Shown here: positions 2,666 through 62,650 of the stretch, one piece after another
Layout of the letters: each line of letters begins with the position of its first letter
Position numbering within the stretch: position 1 is the stretch's first letter
Assembly: GCA_017557525.1 (NCBI GenBank)
Contig: JAFYYN010000070.1
Location: 1-64,000, forward strand
Direction of reading: 5' to 3'
Length of the DNA stretch: 64,000 nucleotides
Origin: Lachnospiraceae bacterium
GTDB taxonomy: Bacteria > Bacillota > Clostridia > Lachnospirales > Lachnospiraceae
Notes under the pieces: model-generated
What the model was told of the DNA's origin: nothing
Database searches by the model: none
What the model saw: the letters and a program-made list of their open reading frames with translations, nothing else
Made by a program: the position numbers and the translations under genes

Positions 2666-3126
2666 TTGCACGTAGTTTATCATTGAAGTTTTGATTTTGA
2701 TGTATGAATGCCGTTCTATCCCCGTTCCTTTTATCGGTTTTGTAAAGCATATGAGCGTATAGGCTTAACAGTGCCTTGCTTTGTTCGTGTGCTTTTAGGG
2801 CTGATAAGACCTAAGGTGGTTGGAACACCGGTTTTTGTCGGATATCGCACATTGACAACTGAATATTTTGCCCTGTACAACACAGGGGGCAGTGAGTCGT
2901 GATATTGGTACGCGATGATGACACTATTATATATAGGAAGAAACTCGATTTCCTCTTATAGTGCCGGAGCGACGAATACCCTTACAAAATAAGGCTGTGG
3001 AGCCTTATGACATTGAAACTGTCCCTGATAATGATACTTCCCTTTGGGATAGGGGCCGAGGAGGCGGGTGAAACACCCATGTGGTACGGACCTGGTACCG
3101 GTACAGGGATTTAGCATAAATTAGAC
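2666..3126 (+). other. non-coding stretch with several hairpins
   Basis: I see no convincing gene here; a 64-codon frame at 2708 lacks a ribosome site and protein-like composition. The stretch has potential stems: ATAGGAAGAAA (2933-2943) with TTTCCTCTTAT (2949-2959), GGGTG/CACCC at 3066-3078, and a GGTACC-rich palindrome near 3090-3106. It may hold an untranslated RNA or recombination sites of the element. Confidence 0.35.
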
Positions 3127-23261: not shown

Positions 23262-24509
23262 ATGAGCAGGAACGAGGCAATAATCCGGGAGACAAAAAGA
23301 AAAACCTTAAGTTTTATGCACAATGCGGCATATAAGGCTGAGAGCTACAGGCTAAACGCCATTCTTAGAGAATATGATCCTTCGGTATGCATACAGAAAA
23401 AACCCCAAAAGGTCAGGACCGTTACGTTTATCATAACCCGTATGGTAAGGTTTCACGGAGGACAGACCTCCATACTTCATTTAGGTACAGAACTTGAGAA
23501 AATGGGGTTAAAGGTATGTTATCTTTCCTGCAAGGAACAGTCACCAGAGGAAATGGAGCTTTGCGCAAACGCCAATCTGCCGGGTTACAGTGGCAGGGTA
23601 TTTGCAATAAACAGGTATCTTGCAGCGATAAAAAAGGGAAAGATAAAGGAACCTGATGTGGTAGTTGCATCCTCATGGGATACGGTTTCATTTGCTCTTA
23701 AATTCGGAGAATCCTACAAGATGTATTTTGTGCAGGACTACGAGCCATTGTTTTATAAATTCGGCGAAGAGTACCTGATGTGCAGGAATACATATCTTCA
23801 AGGTCTGCATATGGTTTCGCTTGGAGAGTGGAACCGGAGGATGATATTAAAAGAGCTTGGGATTTTTGAGAACTTTAAAGGCTCGGACAAGCGTGACAGC
23901 GGGATAAAAATTGATGTGGTTAGTTTTCCGTATGACAGCGAGGGCTATACGCGTTTGGAAAGGAATTATGATGCATACCATTATAAGAATAAGATAACGA
24001 TAGCGGTTTATCTGAAATTTTACGGAAAAAGACTCCCAAATCTGATCCCGTACATGCTGGAGAATACGGCTGAGAAACTAAAGAAAAATGGGATAGAGCT
24101 TGAAATACTGTATTTTGGAGAGGCTAAGACCTTTAATCCCAAGGGAGGAAAGAATCTGGGACAGCTAAATAAGGAGGAGCTCCGGAAACTGTACGCAAAG
24201 GCTGATTTCGGGCTGGTTGCATCCATGAGCAATATTTCACTGGTACCATATGAGATGCACGCATCGGGTCTGCCGGTGATAGAGTTTGGGGACGGGAGCT
24301 ATCCGTTTTTCTTTGGAAATGATACGGCAATACTTACTAAAATAGGGGAGAAAGATATTGCCGGGAAATTGCTTGAAGCAATAAAGGATCCTCAGAAATT
24401 AAGGGAAATGGACGAAAAAGCGGGAGAGAAACTTGGAAGTTTAAGCTGGGAGAGGACAGCTAAGGAGTTTATGGGGATATTGAAGTCAATCACAGGGACG
24501 GTTCTGTGA
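23262..24509 (+). CDS. GT-B glycosyltransferase (WsaF/rhamnosyltransferase-like)
   Basis: A 415-residue glycosyltransferase. The pattern FIITRMVRFHGGQTSILHLGTELEKMGL, then VVASSWDTV, YFVQDYEPLFYKFG and SNISLVPYEMHASGLPVIEFGD, is that of WsaF-type enzymes, several of which add rhamnose. dTDP-rhamnose synthesis is hinted at by rfbD at 36536. The last seven residues (SITGTVL) and the stop are encoded by the left arm of the long hairpin repeat at 24485, so the natural C-terminus has been reshaped by the repeat. Confidence 0.85.
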   Translation: MSRNEAIIRETKRKTLSFMHNAAYKAESYRLNAILREYDPSVCIQKKPQKVRTVTFIITRMVRFHGGQTSILHLGTELEKMGLKVCYLSCKEQSPEEMELCANANLPGYSGRVFAINRYLAAIKKGKIKEPDVVVASSWDTVSFALKFGESYKMYFVQDYEPLFYKFGEEYLMCRNTYLQGLHMVSLGEWNRRMILKELGIFENFKGSDKRDSGIKIDVVSFPYDSEGYTRLERNYDAYHYKNKITIAVYLKFYGKRLPNLIPYMLENTAEKLKKNGIELEILYFGEAKTFNPKGGKNLGQLNKEELRKLYAKADFGLVASMSNISLVPYEMHASGLPVIEFGDGSYPFFFGNDTAILTKIGEKDIAGKLLEAIKDPQKLREMDEKAGEKLGSLSWERTAKEFMGILKSITGTVL

Positions 24510-33565: not shown

Positions 33566-33732
33566 TAGTTGCTTCCCTTTGAGGGGACTGATCGCATCCA
33601 CAAAGTGGTGCGATGCCCGTCTGGCGAAGACAAGCAGTCAGCGGAGCTGACTGATGAGGTGGCGTCGATCATGGGGACGGTTCTGTGGTTGACAAGAAGT
33701 ACGTCAACCGCAGAACCGTCCCTGTGATCGAC
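33566..33732 (+). repeat. compound repeat: nested GCTTCCC element plus long GGGGACGG hairpin
   Basis: The first half is a GCTTCCC...GATGAGGTGG element interrupted by a nested palindrome (GATCGCATCC-ACAAA-GTGGTGCGAT) and GTCAGC-GGA-GCTGAC. The second half is a ~30-bp, near-perfect hairpin, 33664-33693 with 33703-33732 (GTCGATCA...GGGGACGGTTCTG). The pair to it is at 24485-24552. Confidence 0.85.
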
Positions 33733-45777: not shown

Positions 45778-46509
45778 ATGGAAAACAAGATAAATTACCA
45801 GAAGGAATTAGAAAAGGAGATAAAGAAATGGTCGGAGCTTGAAGTATGCCCGACCATACTTTTGCATTCCTGCTGTGCACCCTGTAGTAGCTATTGTTTA
45901 GAGTACCTGAGCAAGTATGCTAAGATAACGGCATTCTACTACAATCCAAATATAACTGATGAAAACGAGTATCGGCATAGAGTGTCGGAACTGAAACGTC
46001 TCATAGAGGAAATGTTTCCGGAAAGAAATGAAACCATTATTAATGGAGATGTGACAACAAATGGAATGGAGAAGAGGATTAAGCCTAGGTTTTTAGAAGG
46101 TACCTATGATCCTGACTCCTTCTATAATATAGCTAAAGGTCTTGAAAATGAACTGGAGTGTGGCAGACGCTGTATAAAGTGCTACGAACTTCGTCTTCGT
46201 AAAACAGCAGAAGAAGCAGTAAAGGGTGGATATGATTATTTCACCACTACTCTAACCATTAGTCCATTGAAAGATGCCCAAGTGTTAAATAGATTGGGAA
46301 TAAAACTCGGTGAAGAATATGGAGTGAAATATCTTCCTTCTGACTTCAAAAAGAATGGTGGCTACCAGAGGTCTATTGAGTTATCTAAAGAGTATAAATT
46401 ATACCGCCAGAATTACTGTGGTTGTGAGTATTCAAAGGCAGCCGGAGCATCTGCACAGGATAAAACCATAGAGCGTGCAGAGGATATGCTACGGTTGCAG
46501 GCACATTGA
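45778..46509 (+). CDS. queH: epoxyqueuosine reductase QueH
   Basis: A 243-residue iron-sulfur enzyme of the DUF208/QueH family, which reduces epoxyqueuosine to queuosine in tRNA. Metal ligands are visible: HSCCAPCSS near the N-terminus, LECGRRCIKCYELRL in the middle, and QNYCGCEYS near residue 220. The family core ends there. The last ~24 codons (KAAGASAQDKTIERAEDMLR...) lie inside the structured repeat 46437-46680, so the C-terminus is repeat-derived. No strong ribosome site is visible; the first ATG gives the full family N-terminus. Confidence 0.92.
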   Translation: MENKINYQKELEKEIKKWSELEVCPTILLHSCCAPCSSYCLEYLSKYAKITAFYYNPNITDENEYRHRVSELKRLIEEMFPERNETIINGDVTTNGMEKRIKPRFLEGTYDPDSFYNIAKGLENELECGRRCIKCYELRLRKTAEEAVKGGYDYFTTTLTISPLKDAQVLNRLGIKLGEEYGVKYLPSDFKKNGGYQRSIELSKEYKLYRQNYCGCEYSKAAGASAQDKTIERAEDMLRLQAH

Positions 46510-46680
46510 AGCAAGACAAAAATCGGTTATCCAAACCGATTTTTGAGCGTAGCCAAAGTGAGTCTGATATCGATCAGACTCACGATTGCAAGCGTTCGAA
46601 GCGTAAATGTGCATGGAAGCGTTTAGCATATCCCTGCAAAGCGGAAATGGGTTTTAGACTGTGTAGATGTTCCGGTTGCC
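46437..46680 (+). repeat. structured ~240-nt element, copy C
   Basis: Outer arms 46437-46458 and 46659-46680 form a 22-bp helix with three G-U pairs (GGCAGCCGG... with ...CCGGTTGCC). Inside: AAAACC/GGTTTT; GCAGAGGATATGCTA (46477-46491) with TAGCATATCCCTGC (46624-46637); hairpin 46517-46545 (CAAAAATCGGTT/AACCGATTTTTG); and hairpin 46558-46583 (GTGAGTCTGAT/ATCAGACTCAC). Conserved single-stranded words are GATTGCAAGCGTTCG and GGGTTTTAGAC. Copies A (53650) and B (62322) are on the other strand. Confidence 0.9.
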
Positions 46681-53649: not shown

Positions 53650-53886
53650 AGTCAGACCGCCAACATAGTCTGAAACCCGCAATCGTTCGTATTGATATGC
53701 CAAGTACTCTTATCCCCAACATTTCTGCGGACGCTTGCAATCAGGTGTCCGCCTGATGCCGGACACCTTTAGGCTGCGCTCAAAAAACGATTTGGAAAAT
53801 CGTTTTTTGCCTTGCAATGTTGTGTTTACGAGTACGGCATATCTAATACTCACTATAGGGTTTCATCCTATATCGGTGGTCCGACT
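53650..53886 (-). repeat. structured ~240-nt element, copy A
   Basis: Outer arms 53650-53668 and 53868-53886 pair over 19 positions; read on the minus strand, three of four non-Watson-Crick positions are G-U. Further helices: GAAACCC/GGGTTTC; GATATGCC/GGCATATC with GTACTC/GAGTAC; hairpin GGTGTCCG/CGGACACC (53743-53766); hairpin CAAAAAACGATTT/AAATCGTTTTTTG (53781-53809). CGCTTGCAATC and TTAGGCTGCG are shared with copies B and C. It ends 37 bp before rnpB. Confidence 0.85.
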
Positions 53887-59907: not shown

Positions 59908-62313
59908 ATGAGCAAGAGAGACATTAACATCGCGATAACAGCCGCTAGCTATAGCGGAAACAAGGGTGCAGCCGCCATGCTACAGAGCTCGATCAAGCAG
60001 CTCTATGCAAAATACGGCAGCAGGCTTAATATAAAGCTTATGTCGGTTTATCCTGATTCCGATAGGGAGCAGGTACCGTTTGATTTTGTAAGTATAGTAC
60101 CTACAAAGCCCGAGAGACTGCTTTTTATAGCATTTCCTTTGGCTATACTGTACAAGGGTCTTGGCTGGATACCCGGCATGAAAAAGCTCATCGGGAAAAA
60201 CAAGATTATAAAGGCATACAGGGATACAGATCTCGTTATTGATGAAGCTGGTATTTCGTTTGTTGACAGCCGTGGCTTTATCATGAATACGTATGCTTTT
60301 GTGACCATGGCTGTTCCGAAGCTGGTTGGAGTGCCGATAGTTAAGTATTCCCAGGCGATGGGCAGCTTTGAGTCTTTCTTTAACAGAATCTATGCCAAGA
60401 TGATCCTGCCCGGTATGGAACTTATCTGCGCGAGAGGCGATATTACCGAGGAGAATCTGCGCGGTATCGGAGTTGAGAAAAACGTTAAGCTCTGCGCGGA
60501 CGGTGCTTTCACCATGGAAGATACCGCAGAGTCAAAGCAGAAGGTTGATGACAGGACTCTGACAGACACTTTCTTTAATAATAATGTTGTTGGCGTTTCT
60601 TTATCAAGCGTTGTAAATAAGAAATGTACCAAGATGAAGATAGATTATCTCTGCGAGATGGTCAAATTCATCGATTACCTGACTGACAGGGGTTATCATG
60701 TGCTCCTGATCGCGAATGCGGCCCGTATTAACAGCGATAAGCCGAGAAATAACGACCTTATGGTCTGCGATTATGTTTTCTCTAAGGTTAAGGACAAGGA
60801 GAATGTACGCTGGTACCATGAGGAAATGGATGCCGAGGAGATAAGGGAATATATCGGCAGATGCAGGTTCCTGGTTGCTTCGCGTTTCCATGCGATGATC
60901 GGCGCGCTGCAGCGTAAGGTGCCGGTGCTTCTTGTGGGCTGGAGCCATAAATATAAGGAAGTACTTGATATGTTCGGTCTTGGTTCATATGCTGCCGACT
61001 ATGCGGATATAGGAAAGGACACAGAAAAGCCTCTTTTAGAGTCGGAGTTTGAGCGCCTTGAGGCAGATGAGGATGAGATCCACAGACTGATCGAAGAGCA
61101 TTACGATGATGTAATGGAGAGTTCTCGCAGGAATATCTTTGAAATTAGCAAGGTTGTGGATAAGGTTACTACACCTTCATTTAAGAGGCGAGCAGCAGGC
61201 AAAGGTTTCGGAGATATGCTTGCAACAAGGCGTGGAAACATAAAGCGTTTTCCTGATATAGATCGTCCTGAAAAGTACATGGGCGAGTATTTGGAGTGCC
61301 GCAGGGGCTATGCTACCGATGAGGATATCAGGAAAAATGCCGCATCGGGCGGAGTTGTTACGGCTCTATTAGTGAGCCTGCTTAAACAGGGTGAGATAGA
61401 CGGAGCTTTTGCTTGCAGGACGACAGTAAAGGATGGTGAGCTTTCATACGAAACTATGATAGCAACCGATGAGGAGACTATAAAGAGCTGTTCTTCAAGC
61501 ATATATATGTCTATGCCTTTACTTAAGGATCTTGATAAGATAAGGAATTTTGATGGTAAGGTTGCTGTAGTGCTTATCCCCTGTCTGATGAGGGCGTTTA
61601 ATGCTATCTTAAAGCATGACAAAGATTTAGCTAAAAAGGTTGTGCTTAAGCTCGGACTTTTTTGTAGCGGAAACCACAAGAAGGATGCAACTCTTCTTTC
61701 GTTAAAGAAAGCCGGTATGACACTATATGACGCTGAAAGGCTTTATTACAGGAGAGGCGCATGGAGAGGGCAGTCATCCGTAGTTTATAAGGATGGAAGC
61801 GAGAAGACCTTCTCATATACAAAGACACTGTGTGCCTTCAAAAATGCTTATTTCTTTGAAGAAAAGTCGTGTATGCTCTGCCAGGACCATTTCGCAAATG
61901 GAGCGGATATAAGCTTTGGCGATATCTGGCTTAAGAAGATGAAGAAGGAACCTGTGAAGTGCACGGGTTACGTGATCAGGACTGCAGAGGGCAAGAGACT
62001 TTATACCAAAGCTGTTAAGGCCGGAGATATTACTGAGAGGCATATGAGTACCGAAGACTGCCTTGCAGGGCAGAACAGGGCGCTGGCGTTTAAATATGCC
62101 GCTGCAAAGGCTAAGGTGGATGCGCTGCTTAAAGAGGGCAAGAATGCCAAGCTTGATACCTCTGACAAGTGCAAGTGGAACCACAGGCTTGCTTTCTGGC
62201 TGGCTGAAAAGGACAGGGCATTCTCAGAGGAGAAGCCGGAGAAGCTGGCAAAGGTGCCGATGAGCGTGATCTACTATTATATGTGCTTTATTAGAGTGCT
62301 GTTGAGCCTGTAA
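59908..62313 (+). CDS. polysaccharide pyruvyl transferase - FrhB/FdhB-like fusion
   Basis: An 801-residue fusion. Residues ~1-400 are a WcaK-type polysaccharide pyruvyl transferase (NIAITAASYSGNKGAAAMLQS, VIDEAGISFVDSRG, YSQAMGSFES, CARGDITEENL, VASRFHAMIGALQRKVPVLLVGWSHKY). Residues ~445-750 match the coenzyme F420 hydrogenase/dehydrogenase beta-subunit fold: ECRRGYATDEDIRKNAASGGVVTALL, VLIPCLMRAF, LGLFCSGNH, and the metal-ligand-like SCMLCQDHFANGADISFGDIWL. The two are usually adjacent separate genes in polysaccharide loci. The pair suggests pyruvyl/ketal modification with a redox-like partner; the reaction is unknown. No clear ribosome site. Confidence 0.87.
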   Translation: MSKRDINIAITAASYSGNKGAAAMLQSSIKQLYAKYGSRLNIKLMSVYPDSDREQVPFDFVSIVPTKPERLLFIAFPLAILYKGLGWIPGMKKLIGKNKIIKAYRDTDLVIDEAGISFVDSRGFIMNTYAFVTMAVPKLVGVPIVKYSQAMGSFESFFNRIYAKMILPGMELICARGDITEENLRGIGVEKNVKLCADGAFTMEDTAESKQKVDDRTLTDTFFNNNVVGVSLSSVVNKKCTKMKIDYLCEMVKFIDYLTDRGYHVLLIANAARINSDKPRNNDLMVCDYVFSKVKDKENVRWYHEEMDAEEIREYIGRCRFLVASRFHAMIGALQRKVPVLLVGWSHKYKEVLDMFGLGSYAADYADIGKDTEKPLLESEFERLEADEDEIHRLIEEHYDDVMESSRRNIFEISKVVDKVTTPSFKRRAAGKGFGDMLATRRGNIKRFPDIDRPEKYMGEYLECRRGYATDEDIRKNAASGGVVTALLVSLLKQGEIDGAFACRTTVKDGELSYETMIATDEETIKSCSSSIYMSMPLLKDLDKIRNFDGKVAVVLIPCLMRAFNAILKHDKDLAKKVVLKLGLFCSGNHKKDATLLSLKKAGMTLYDAERLYYRRGAWRGQSSVVYKDGSEKTFSYTKTLCAFKNAYFFEEKSCMLCQDHFANGADISFGDIWLKKMKKEPVKCTGYVIRTAEGKRLYTKAVKAGDITERHMSTEDCLAGQNRALAFKYAAAKAKVDALLKEGKNAKLDTSDKCKWNHRLAFWLAEKDRAFSEEKPEKLAKVPMSVIYYYMCFIRVLLSL

Positions 62314-62321
62314 ATTATACC

Positions 62322-62564
62322 GGGTTGATTCCCCATAATATGGTCTAAAACCCGTTACGCTGCATTGGGATATGCTAAGGTGTTTCTATCTCCATCTGCA
62401 CTGCGAACGCTTGCAATCGTTTGTCCGCCTGATACCGGACGAACTTAGGCTGCGATCAAAAATCGGTTTGGATAACCGATTTTTGTCTTGTTTCGATGGG
62501 ATATAAACACGAGCATATCCACAATTCGCTTAAGGCTTTATCCCATATCATGGGGCCTCAACCC
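62322..62564 (-). repeat. structured ~240-nt element, copy B
   Basis: Outer arms 62322-62343 and 62543-62564 pair over 22 positions with two mismatches and one wobble. Other helices: AAAGCC/GGGTTTT (one G-U, minus strand); GGATATGCT/AGCATATCC plus GTGTTT/AAACAC; hairpin GTTTGTCCG/CGGACGAAC (about 62419-62443); hairpin CAAAAATCGGTT/AACCGATTTTTG (62457-62485). It starts 8 bp after the stop of 59908-62313. Arms differ in sequence from copies A and C but pair the same way. Confidence 0.88.
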
Positions 62565-62650
62565 TGAAACAAGGTTACAGGCTTTAAAAAAGATCAATGG
62601 ATATAAATAACTAAATGAGTAGACGCTGTGAGATAGGAGCTATATCATAA

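Follow-up and report, generated by a model that had tools for sequence, protein, structure and literature searches.

The window analyzed here, the whole stretch of 64,000 nucleotides from contig JAFYYN010000070.1 of a Lachnospiraceae bacterium (assembly GCA_017557525.1), contains three copies of a palindromic element, which we refer to as copies A, B and C. The copies, their main parts and their neighboring genes are listed below (a few of the neighbors, e.g. queH, were assigned by domain match, and the others by eye from the protein ends).

46437..46680, plus strand: copy C, full palindromic element, on the same strand as both neighboring genes (the end of queH on one side, a gene for an HD-domain phosphohydrolase on the other)
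46517..46545: hairpin 1 of copy C (helix 7 in the pairing count), with an A-run/T-run and the conserved ATCCA loop
46558..46583, plus strand: hairpin 2 of copy C, with a variable stem and the conserved YATCR loop
51975-53636, plus strand: PRK-family gene beside copy A
53650..53886, minus strand: copy A, full element, between the stop of the PRK-family gene and the RNase P RNA gene
53781..53809: hairpin 1 of copy A, with an A-run/T-run
59908-62313, plus strand: 801-aa gene before copy B
62306..62314, minus strand: right half of a short palindrome, TTTACAGGC
62322..62564, minus strand: copy B, full element, 3' of the stop of the 801-aa gene
62457..62485: hairpin 1 of copy B, terminator-like on the plus strand, i.e. 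in the direction of the upstream gene
62575..62582, minus strand: left half of the same short palindrome, GCCTGTAA; copy B lies between GCCTGTAA and TTTACAGGC

The initial annotation had described these copies as a structured element, and its coordinates, strands, shared internal words and ATCGnTT hairpin were all confirmed. RNA folding z-scores against dinucleotide shuffles are -15.0, -12.1 and -9.9 for copies C, A and B, respectively, and for each copy none of 200 shuffles folds as well. The closing arms had been given as 19-22 bp long, paired within each copy and completely different between copies; the pairing holds, but the paired arms extend over about 33 bp per side and the difference is not complete, with the A and C arms being alike (GTCGGACCACCGATATAGGAT vs GCCGGAGCATCTGCACAGGAT) and orthologous arms being alignable.

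The initial annotation knew of no matching family, and this still stands. Of the 8 Rfam matches in the window at the gathering score (RNase P, six tRNAs and the pemK motif), none lies on the elements, and a search of 12 loci up to E = 5 gives no match inside the elements; a known Rfam class was therefore rejected for the window and these loci. No description of the element was found among the publications listed by a literature search, most subscription journals being outside its reach.

We note some other features of the window. The queH reading frame enters copy C (46437-46509), and the QueH domain match stops at residue 221 of 243, so the last queH residues are encoded by copy C, which is comparable to protein-coding palindromic repeats. 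REP-like motifs of the GGGACGGTTC type are found at 24495, 33674, 33713, 44411 and 45668 (those at 33674 and 33713 form a facing pair). The Rfam match to the pemK cis-regulatory motif (RF02913) is at 3028-3082 on the plus strand, with 41.6 bits.

Distribution of the family

The covariance-style search that the initial annotation had proposed, using a model built from 12 copies, recovered covarying relatives: 14 matches in the genome of the window itself and, across 24 genomes of the genus, 126 matches, all of them in 9 genomes, with the remaining 15 having none. A family-level sample of 200 genomes gave matches in the own genome and in four other genera (1-3 divergent matches each, which fold to a similar plan), and a broader model applied to 392 sampled genomes of the order gave matches in two of them, the own genome and G542, under stricter filters in both scans, by which weak matches are lost. 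G542 contains three near-identical copies and one rearranged copy (by eye).

A DNA pattern that covers 52 of the 111 known copies was found in 51 stretches of named genomes, 50 titled Lachnospiraceae and one Ruminococcus, and the isolate names of these genomes refer to rumen and omasum surveys. No viral contig matched this pattern, and phage carriage was rejected, weakly because the pattern covers just 52 of the 111 copies. One full-length match (L227, 164.5 bits) lies in a MAG of another named genus, Ruminococcus sp. RGIG8224, reflecting either transfer or a binning error.

The analyses below use 111 copies. Out of 124 matches found, 112 were used, with two excluded as cut at a contig start and 10 as partial, aberrant or duplicate; L110 (from G006) was dropped as identical to another copy, though it comes from its own place in another genome. 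Some loci have unusual forms or arrangements. L057 (G054) is a near-perfect palindrome over the whole folded stretch, with a junction plan like that of the family, a stretch of about 600 nt at L059 (G112:C16) contains two divergent elements of opposite orientation, and at L093 (G003:C26) and L092 (G006:C70) elements or parts of elements are paired in opposite orientation, a few hundred bases apart.

Anatomy and covariation

The element is a non-coding palindrome of about 245 bp. It has outer arms of about 33 bp on each side, an inner helix of conserved sequence (GCAGnGGATATGC pairs with GCATATCCCTGC), the variable helix P2 (about 20 bp) inside the inner helix, and, inside P2, a three-way junction that bears hairpin 1 (CAAAAATCGGTTATCCAAACCGATTTTTG, with the loop ATCCA or AACCA in most copies) and hairpin 2 (variable stem, YATCR loop). 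The junction strands, GAGCGYAGCMYAAG and CGATTGCAAGCGTCCGAAG, are conserved and imperfect. Between non-orthologous copies the identity of the left arm is 0.60, as compared to 0.78 for the mid core.

Among 97 distinct core sequences, 95.0% of cells are paired, as compared to 79.8% after shuffling, and in 52 of 59 pairs both sides have changed; none of 500 shuffles matches either value. Hairpin 1 is 99.9% paired with G-U almost absent, and helix 8 of the junction is imperfect and G-U-rich (148 G-U cells, 7 double changes). Helix 8 stays imperfect, so any copying between arms has not perfected it, and its imperfection is presumably kept for some reason.

Covariation normally serves as the proof that an RNA is functional, and the initial annotation took it as the signature of a functional RNA or a structure-selected element. 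According to the RNA explanation, each copy is transcribed on the given sense, folded, and kept by selection on the RNA. Covariation well above the shuffles, the conserved loops and the imperfect junction with G-U pairs (helix 8) all favor it. We nevertheless consider it improbable, on account of the orientation of the copies and of the way in which their pairs change.

Sites, orientation and inheritance in place

ORFs lie on both sides of 97 copies, in tandem for 66, convergent for 26 and divergent for 5 (the other 14 of the 111 copies were not placed between ORFs). For tandem copies, the median distance is 25 nt to the stop codon upstream and 103 nt to the start codon that follows. The sense strand of the element is antisense to the tandem genes in 50 of the 66 cases and sense in 16; counted per site the bias is weaker (24 antisense and 11 sense among 35 sites, p = 0.04). 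The initial annotation had read the wobble pairs as a hint at the transcribed strand. One strand is indeed preferred, but more often it is the one opposite to that of the upstream gene, which counts against a functional RNA, as does the lack of promoter enrichment in the flanks (in a low-power scan that missed the promoters of downstream genes too).

The orientation of the element seems to go with the gene and not with replication, although few copies lie behind lagging-strand genes: all four of these are antisense to the gene. For 44 tandem copies GC skew and gene strand agree; 36 of these have the antisense orientation, after leading-strand genes in 32 cases and lagging-strand genes in 4, and the 8 sense copies all follow leading-strand genes. 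Over all 61 copies used in the skew comparison, the sense strand agrees with positive skew in 23 and disagrees in 38 (p = 0.07). A replication-linked orientation appears unlikely on these counts.

By comparison of flanks, the copies fall into 64 site groups, 27 of which hold 2-5 copies and together include 74 of the 111 copies. At each of these 27 shared sites every copy comes from a different genome, with the same neighbors and orientation, so many copies have been inherited in place (e.g. copy B has an ortholog in G008, L116). The groups join same-orientation neighbors only; at least four more joins are suggested in which the element is reversed between cross-species flanks, at L078 (G020), L148 (G003), L112 (G001), and L050 (G000) with L080 (G003), further candidates near paired elements being left aside. 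At the rnpB site of copy A the element is present in 3 of 21 measured genomes (G000, G006 and G008) and absent in 18, and in G008 the element is flanked by halves that resemble the terminator of G010.

The two flanks of a copy tend to pair with each other (5.34 vs 4.51 by chance, sd 0.10, 104 copies; 5.38 vs 4.78, sd 0.15, when each site is counted once, n = 58), and some copies lie within GGGACGGTTC palindromes. Three copies at three sites of one genome (L101, L135 and L146) are 95-97% identical. The right flanks of these three are similar as well (0.70-0.75), which may be due to their common position inside GGGACGGTTC-type palindromes. Direct repeats between flanks score 4.85 vs 4.64 (sd 0.09) in 30-nt windows, 4.18 vs 4.03 (sd 0.09) in 20-nt windows and 3.14 vs 3.13 (sd 0.07) in 12-nt windows.

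Mid-core identity is 0.782 for copies within a genome, 0.783 for non-orthologous copies across genomes and 0.838 for orthologs. Gene conversion between the copies of one genome was rejected, since identity within genomes is no higher than across them.

Constraint in place and a terminator-like hairpin

Using the closest ortholog pair at each of 26 sites, we obtained 0.21-0.22 substitutions per site for the arms and P2, 0.106 for hairpin 1, 0.125 for the junction and 0.118 for the inner helix. The core changes slowly and is not homogenized within genomes, so part of it is held at each site. Such conservation in place would also be expected of a functional RNA.

On the strand opposite to the given sense, a T-rich tail comes after hairpin 1 (3.25 vs 0.73 T in 10, in 92 of the 111 copies). 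A terminator scan found terminator patterns in two of the three window copies, B and C, the pattern of copy C being on the minus strand and pointing against queH; no terminator was scored for hairpin 1 of copy A. Judged from its sequence, hairpin 1 looks like a predicted intrinsic terminator for the upstream gene in antisense-oriented copies.

How paired positions change as compared to RNase P RNA

As an internal control we used the RNase P RNAs of the same genomes (18 sequences), for which the pairs of the consensus fold were counted, as compared to the pairs of each element's own fold for the elements. The close ortholog set of the elements (identity of at least 85%) contains 18 pairs from 12 sites, which share members and are not independent, and the expected numbers of double changes presuppose a match in one third of random double changes. 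In the 1554 Watson-Crick pairs of this set there are 53 Watson-Crick doubles (about 2 expected with independent sides), and one-sided changes from Watson-Crick pairs gave 57 mismatches and 21 G-U pairs. The outer arms alone have 31 doubles (1.6 expected), with 28 mismatches and 9 G-U pairs among the singles. RNase P has 168 doubles (6.4 expected) and 106 singles, 96 of them G-U and 10 mismatched. Singles that are still paired make up 35 of 95 in the elements and 208 of 229 in RNase P (identity of at least 85% in both).

Doubles are thus plentiful in RNase P too, a point in favor of a functional RNA, and since re-pairing is strong there as well, the excess of re-pairing alone does not discriminate copying from selection. 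The difference is in the singles: mismatches stand freely in the elements and do not in RNase P. A selected structured RNA has rare mismatches and singles that keep G-U pairs, which is not what we found in the elements, and this counts against a functional RNA. We infer that, under strong selection for pairing, mismatches could not be so numerous in the arms while pairs are restored this often; copying of one arm from the other could give both. The doubles of the elements include 28 transitions and 25 transversions, like their unpaired sites (81 : 72), and RNase P has 118 transitions and 50 transversions among doubles vs 261 : 332 at unpaired sites.

The share of unrepaired changes grows from the hairpins to the stems whose sides are far apart, as seen in the ortholog pairs: 80 doubles and 3 singles in hairpin 1, 103 doubles and 18 singles in hairpin 2 (plus 4 broken doubles), 190 doubles and 167 singles in P2 (52 broken doubles), and 291 doubles and 393 singles in the outer arm (83 broken doubles). 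By cell counts, hairpin 1 has 140 double swaps (49 of them by transversion), 2 one-sided G-U pairs and 1 mismatch in 1175 cells, as compared to 183 doubles, 104 one-sided changes that keep pairing and 11 mismatches in RNase P. Hairpin pairs therefore mostly switch as a unit, in hairpin 1 nearly without intermediates, which counts against RNA selection and points to arm-to-arm copying at the DNA level. For this reason, and because one-sided changes in the stems are mostly mismatches (unlike in RNase P) while pairs are still restored, we do not follow the initial annotation in taking covariation alone as the signature of a functional RNA. The covariation it had noticed is real and far larger than it supposed; a good part of it is probably due to mutational copying and not to RNA selection.

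The swaps in hairpin 1 could also come from selection for a perfect hairpin on both DNA strands (e.g. a bidirectional terminator), with rapid two-step changes and no copying from a template. Hairpin 1 has both an A-run and a T-run and is paired almost without exception, and a G-U on one strand is an A-C on the other, hence the exclusion of G-U would be explained. We consider this very unlikely: hairpin 1 changes at about half the rate of the arms, which is fast for valley crossing under strong selection, its ortholog pairs show hardly any singles beside the many doubles, the outer arms tolerate mismatches yet re-pair, and in-place inversions (see below) show arm-to-arm events.

Several counts go against a simple reading of these data as copying. 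The share of transversions among doubles is 30% in RNase P at identities of at least 85%; at identities of at least 60% the shares are close (43% in the elements, 41% in RNase P); and by cell counts the share is 46% in RNase P vs 35-37% in the hairpins. When hairpins are taken from the minimum-energy fold, there are 11 doubles and 8 singles at identities of at least 85%, and 50 and 24 at identities of at least 75%. Clustering of double changes was tried and rejected as a test of template switching, with RNase P clustering more than the elements. The equal-size excess of re-pairing in RNase P slightly weakens the case for copying, and the in-place inversions favor it.

Rearrangements at the DNA level

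Two elements are inverted in place, as expected from arm exchange or template switching: L078 as compared to L073 and L075, and L148 as compared to L151, have the same flanks with the element reversed (90-96% identical). Stubs with matched arms and a lost center, i.e. central deletions, were found at L361, L362, L363 and L366, and the stub at L361 has arms only and lies within a REP-like palindrome. At L279 (G542) an inverted copy of part of the element's own 3' half is inserted (by eye). At one site (infB; by eye), L142 and L132 are orthologs, and the outer flanks of L142 match the L132 arms but enclose another, complete element, which suggests replacement through a stub.

The initial annotation had argued that transposon ends would keep their sequence, whereas here structure is kept. 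With insertion in hairpin loops, near-identical copies, inversion and stubs, however, the copies act like a mobile palindromic repeat.

Strand asymmetry of wobble pairs

As the initial annotation had observed for one outer helix, G-U pairs exceed A-C pairs on the given sense: 130 vs 66 in the arms (109 copies) and 70 vs 29 in P2 (93 copies), with 4 vs 4 in the stem of hairpin 2 (97 copies). In the outermost arm, with one copy per site, the counts are 70 and 32. Grouped by orientation, they are 88 : 33 for antisense copies, 35 : 11 for sense copies and 76 : 44 for the rest (the orientation classes include 59 of the 66 tandem copies, the other 7 being counted with the rest). The excess is present in all orientation classes, so selection on a terminator in the upstream transcript does not explain it. 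A functional RNA gains from this asymmetry, which holds on one strand whatever the orientation of the gene.

The bias counts against simple template switching and suggests some selection on one folded strand; a folded single strand, of DNA or RNA, seems to matter somewhat. One explanation that would account for it is a self-templated element, in which the sequence drifts, the fold is restored by arm copying, and the folded sense strand is also an active molecule or intermediate. If the sense strand were active as RNA or single-stranded DNA, G-U would be tolerated over A-C in every orientation. We regard this explanation as possible but unlikely; if true, such an element would be a heritable fold without heritable sequence.

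Candidate movers

No mobilizing protein was found. An autonomous version with an internal gene was sought in the 4-kb contig G006:C63, which ends in two inverted, near-identical half copies and encodes a DNA methyltransferase-like protein, a second enzyme of that locus and a lipoprotein (by eye); it was rejected, and the half copies at its ends are most likely an assembly break at repeats. A protein partner beside distant relatives was likewise rejected, with none seen in 11 loci (by eye).

The element could also be a transposon that moves as single-stranded DNA, as in IS200/IS605 or REP/RAYT systems, with a Y1/RAYT-type enzyme inserting the folded sense strand into extruded hairpins. This would agree with the preference for one folded strand and with insertion in hairpin loops. 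The GGGACGGTTC palindromes that contain several of the copies are also found on the flanks of 4 of the 12 weaker-scoring Y1_Tnp loci of the genus (L261, L269, L270 and L271, which we take to be RAYT), and a Y1_Tnp gene is present in 7 of the 9 element-bearing genomes. On the other hand, G001 and G003, with 22 and 19 matches, have no Y1_Tnp gene (these genomes are 85% and 71% complete), 5 of the 15 element-free genomes do have one, none of 25 Y1 loci (about 3.3 kb or less) contains the element, and orientation goes with the gene in all four copies behind lagging-strand genes. Taken together, these data make such a transposon quite improbable, and Y1_Tnp was rejected as the obvious mover given its weak correlation with the presence of the element.

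Proposed explanation

The explanation that we favor, and consider reasonably probable, is a YPAL-like palindromic repeat that carries a terminator-like hairpin and a conserved, imperfect junction, and in which template switching at the DNA level rewrites each arm from the other. The family would have been mobile in the past and would now be largely inherited in place. Its copies would have entered the loops of other hairpins that lie behind genes (terminators and REP-like palindromes), moved by a putative structure-recognizing transposase acting in trans. DNA hairpins would form at the copies, with one half repeatedly rewritten from the other (quasipalindrome correction), so that the arms may drift in sequence yet remain paired, with the closest match in the two short hairpins. 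A small part would be held by selection in place, i.e. hairpin 1, whose present function may be termination, and the imperfect junction around it.

About 100 copies display textbook covariation that shuffling tests accept, yet the kind of changes, the inversions in place and the lost centers point to copying between DNA arms as a large part of the cause. Palindromic repeats should accordingly not be read as RNAs from covariation alone. The many independent sites, together with RNase P as an internal control, make it testable in bacteria whether template switching writes RNA-like covariation.

Comparison with known systems

ERIC, RUP, NEMIS and other prokaryotic MITEs are also small, non-coding intergenic repeats that fold. 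The terminal inverted repeats of MITEs are taken to be of fixed sequence, whereas the terminal sequence of the element is not fixed; a MITE with sequence-fixed ends was rejected given the lower identity of the left arm as compared to the mid core between non-orthologous copies. In the excerpts available of PMC3733652, the terminal inverted repeats of MITEs are 15-30 bp long, and REPs are described as 20-40 bp with a GTAG or CGTC tag. Like REPs, the element is an extragenic palindrome, and its genomes also contain REP-like motifs and Y1_Tnp genes. Unlike them, it is about 245 bp long and has no Y1 gene beside it, and membership in REP/RAYT was rejected on its length and on the lack of the element at the Y1_Tnp loci. 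The element represents a real family of palindromic repeats without a counterpart in Rfam, and REP/RAYT and classical MITEs fail the tested features.

For the rewriting of arms, the closest reports are those on template switching. As given in part of PMC8794818, stems stay matched by copying one arm from the other, and their pairs change together; as given in part of PMC8604942, switching between inverted repeats homogenizes the arms and inverts spacers. These reports concern RNA genes and yeast genes, whereas here a multi-copy intergenic element with long arms is found at many independent sites.

The system that works most alike appears to be YPAL/RU-2 of Yersinia, compared here by its description. 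The sections seen of PMC2229807 describe YPAL as a palindromic repeat of intergenic regions, with targets that include or border on dyad symmetry; its copy numbers are found in PMC2847712 and the table rows for YPAL/RU-2 in PMC2267715, each consulted in excerpt. Going by the same sections of PMC2229807, YPAL and the element share many copies, occurrence largely in one genus, filled and empty sites, and dyad-symmetric targets; here, too, a multi-copy intergenic palindrome in one genus was found at targets with dyad symmetry. YPAL is about 168 bp long as compared to about 245 bp for the element, and target duplications of 3-26 bp are reported for YPAL, with none clear at the element. The element further differs from YPAL in its three-way junction, which bears two hairpins, in having arms that are specific to each copy, in its strand preference and in being inherited at sites shared between species.
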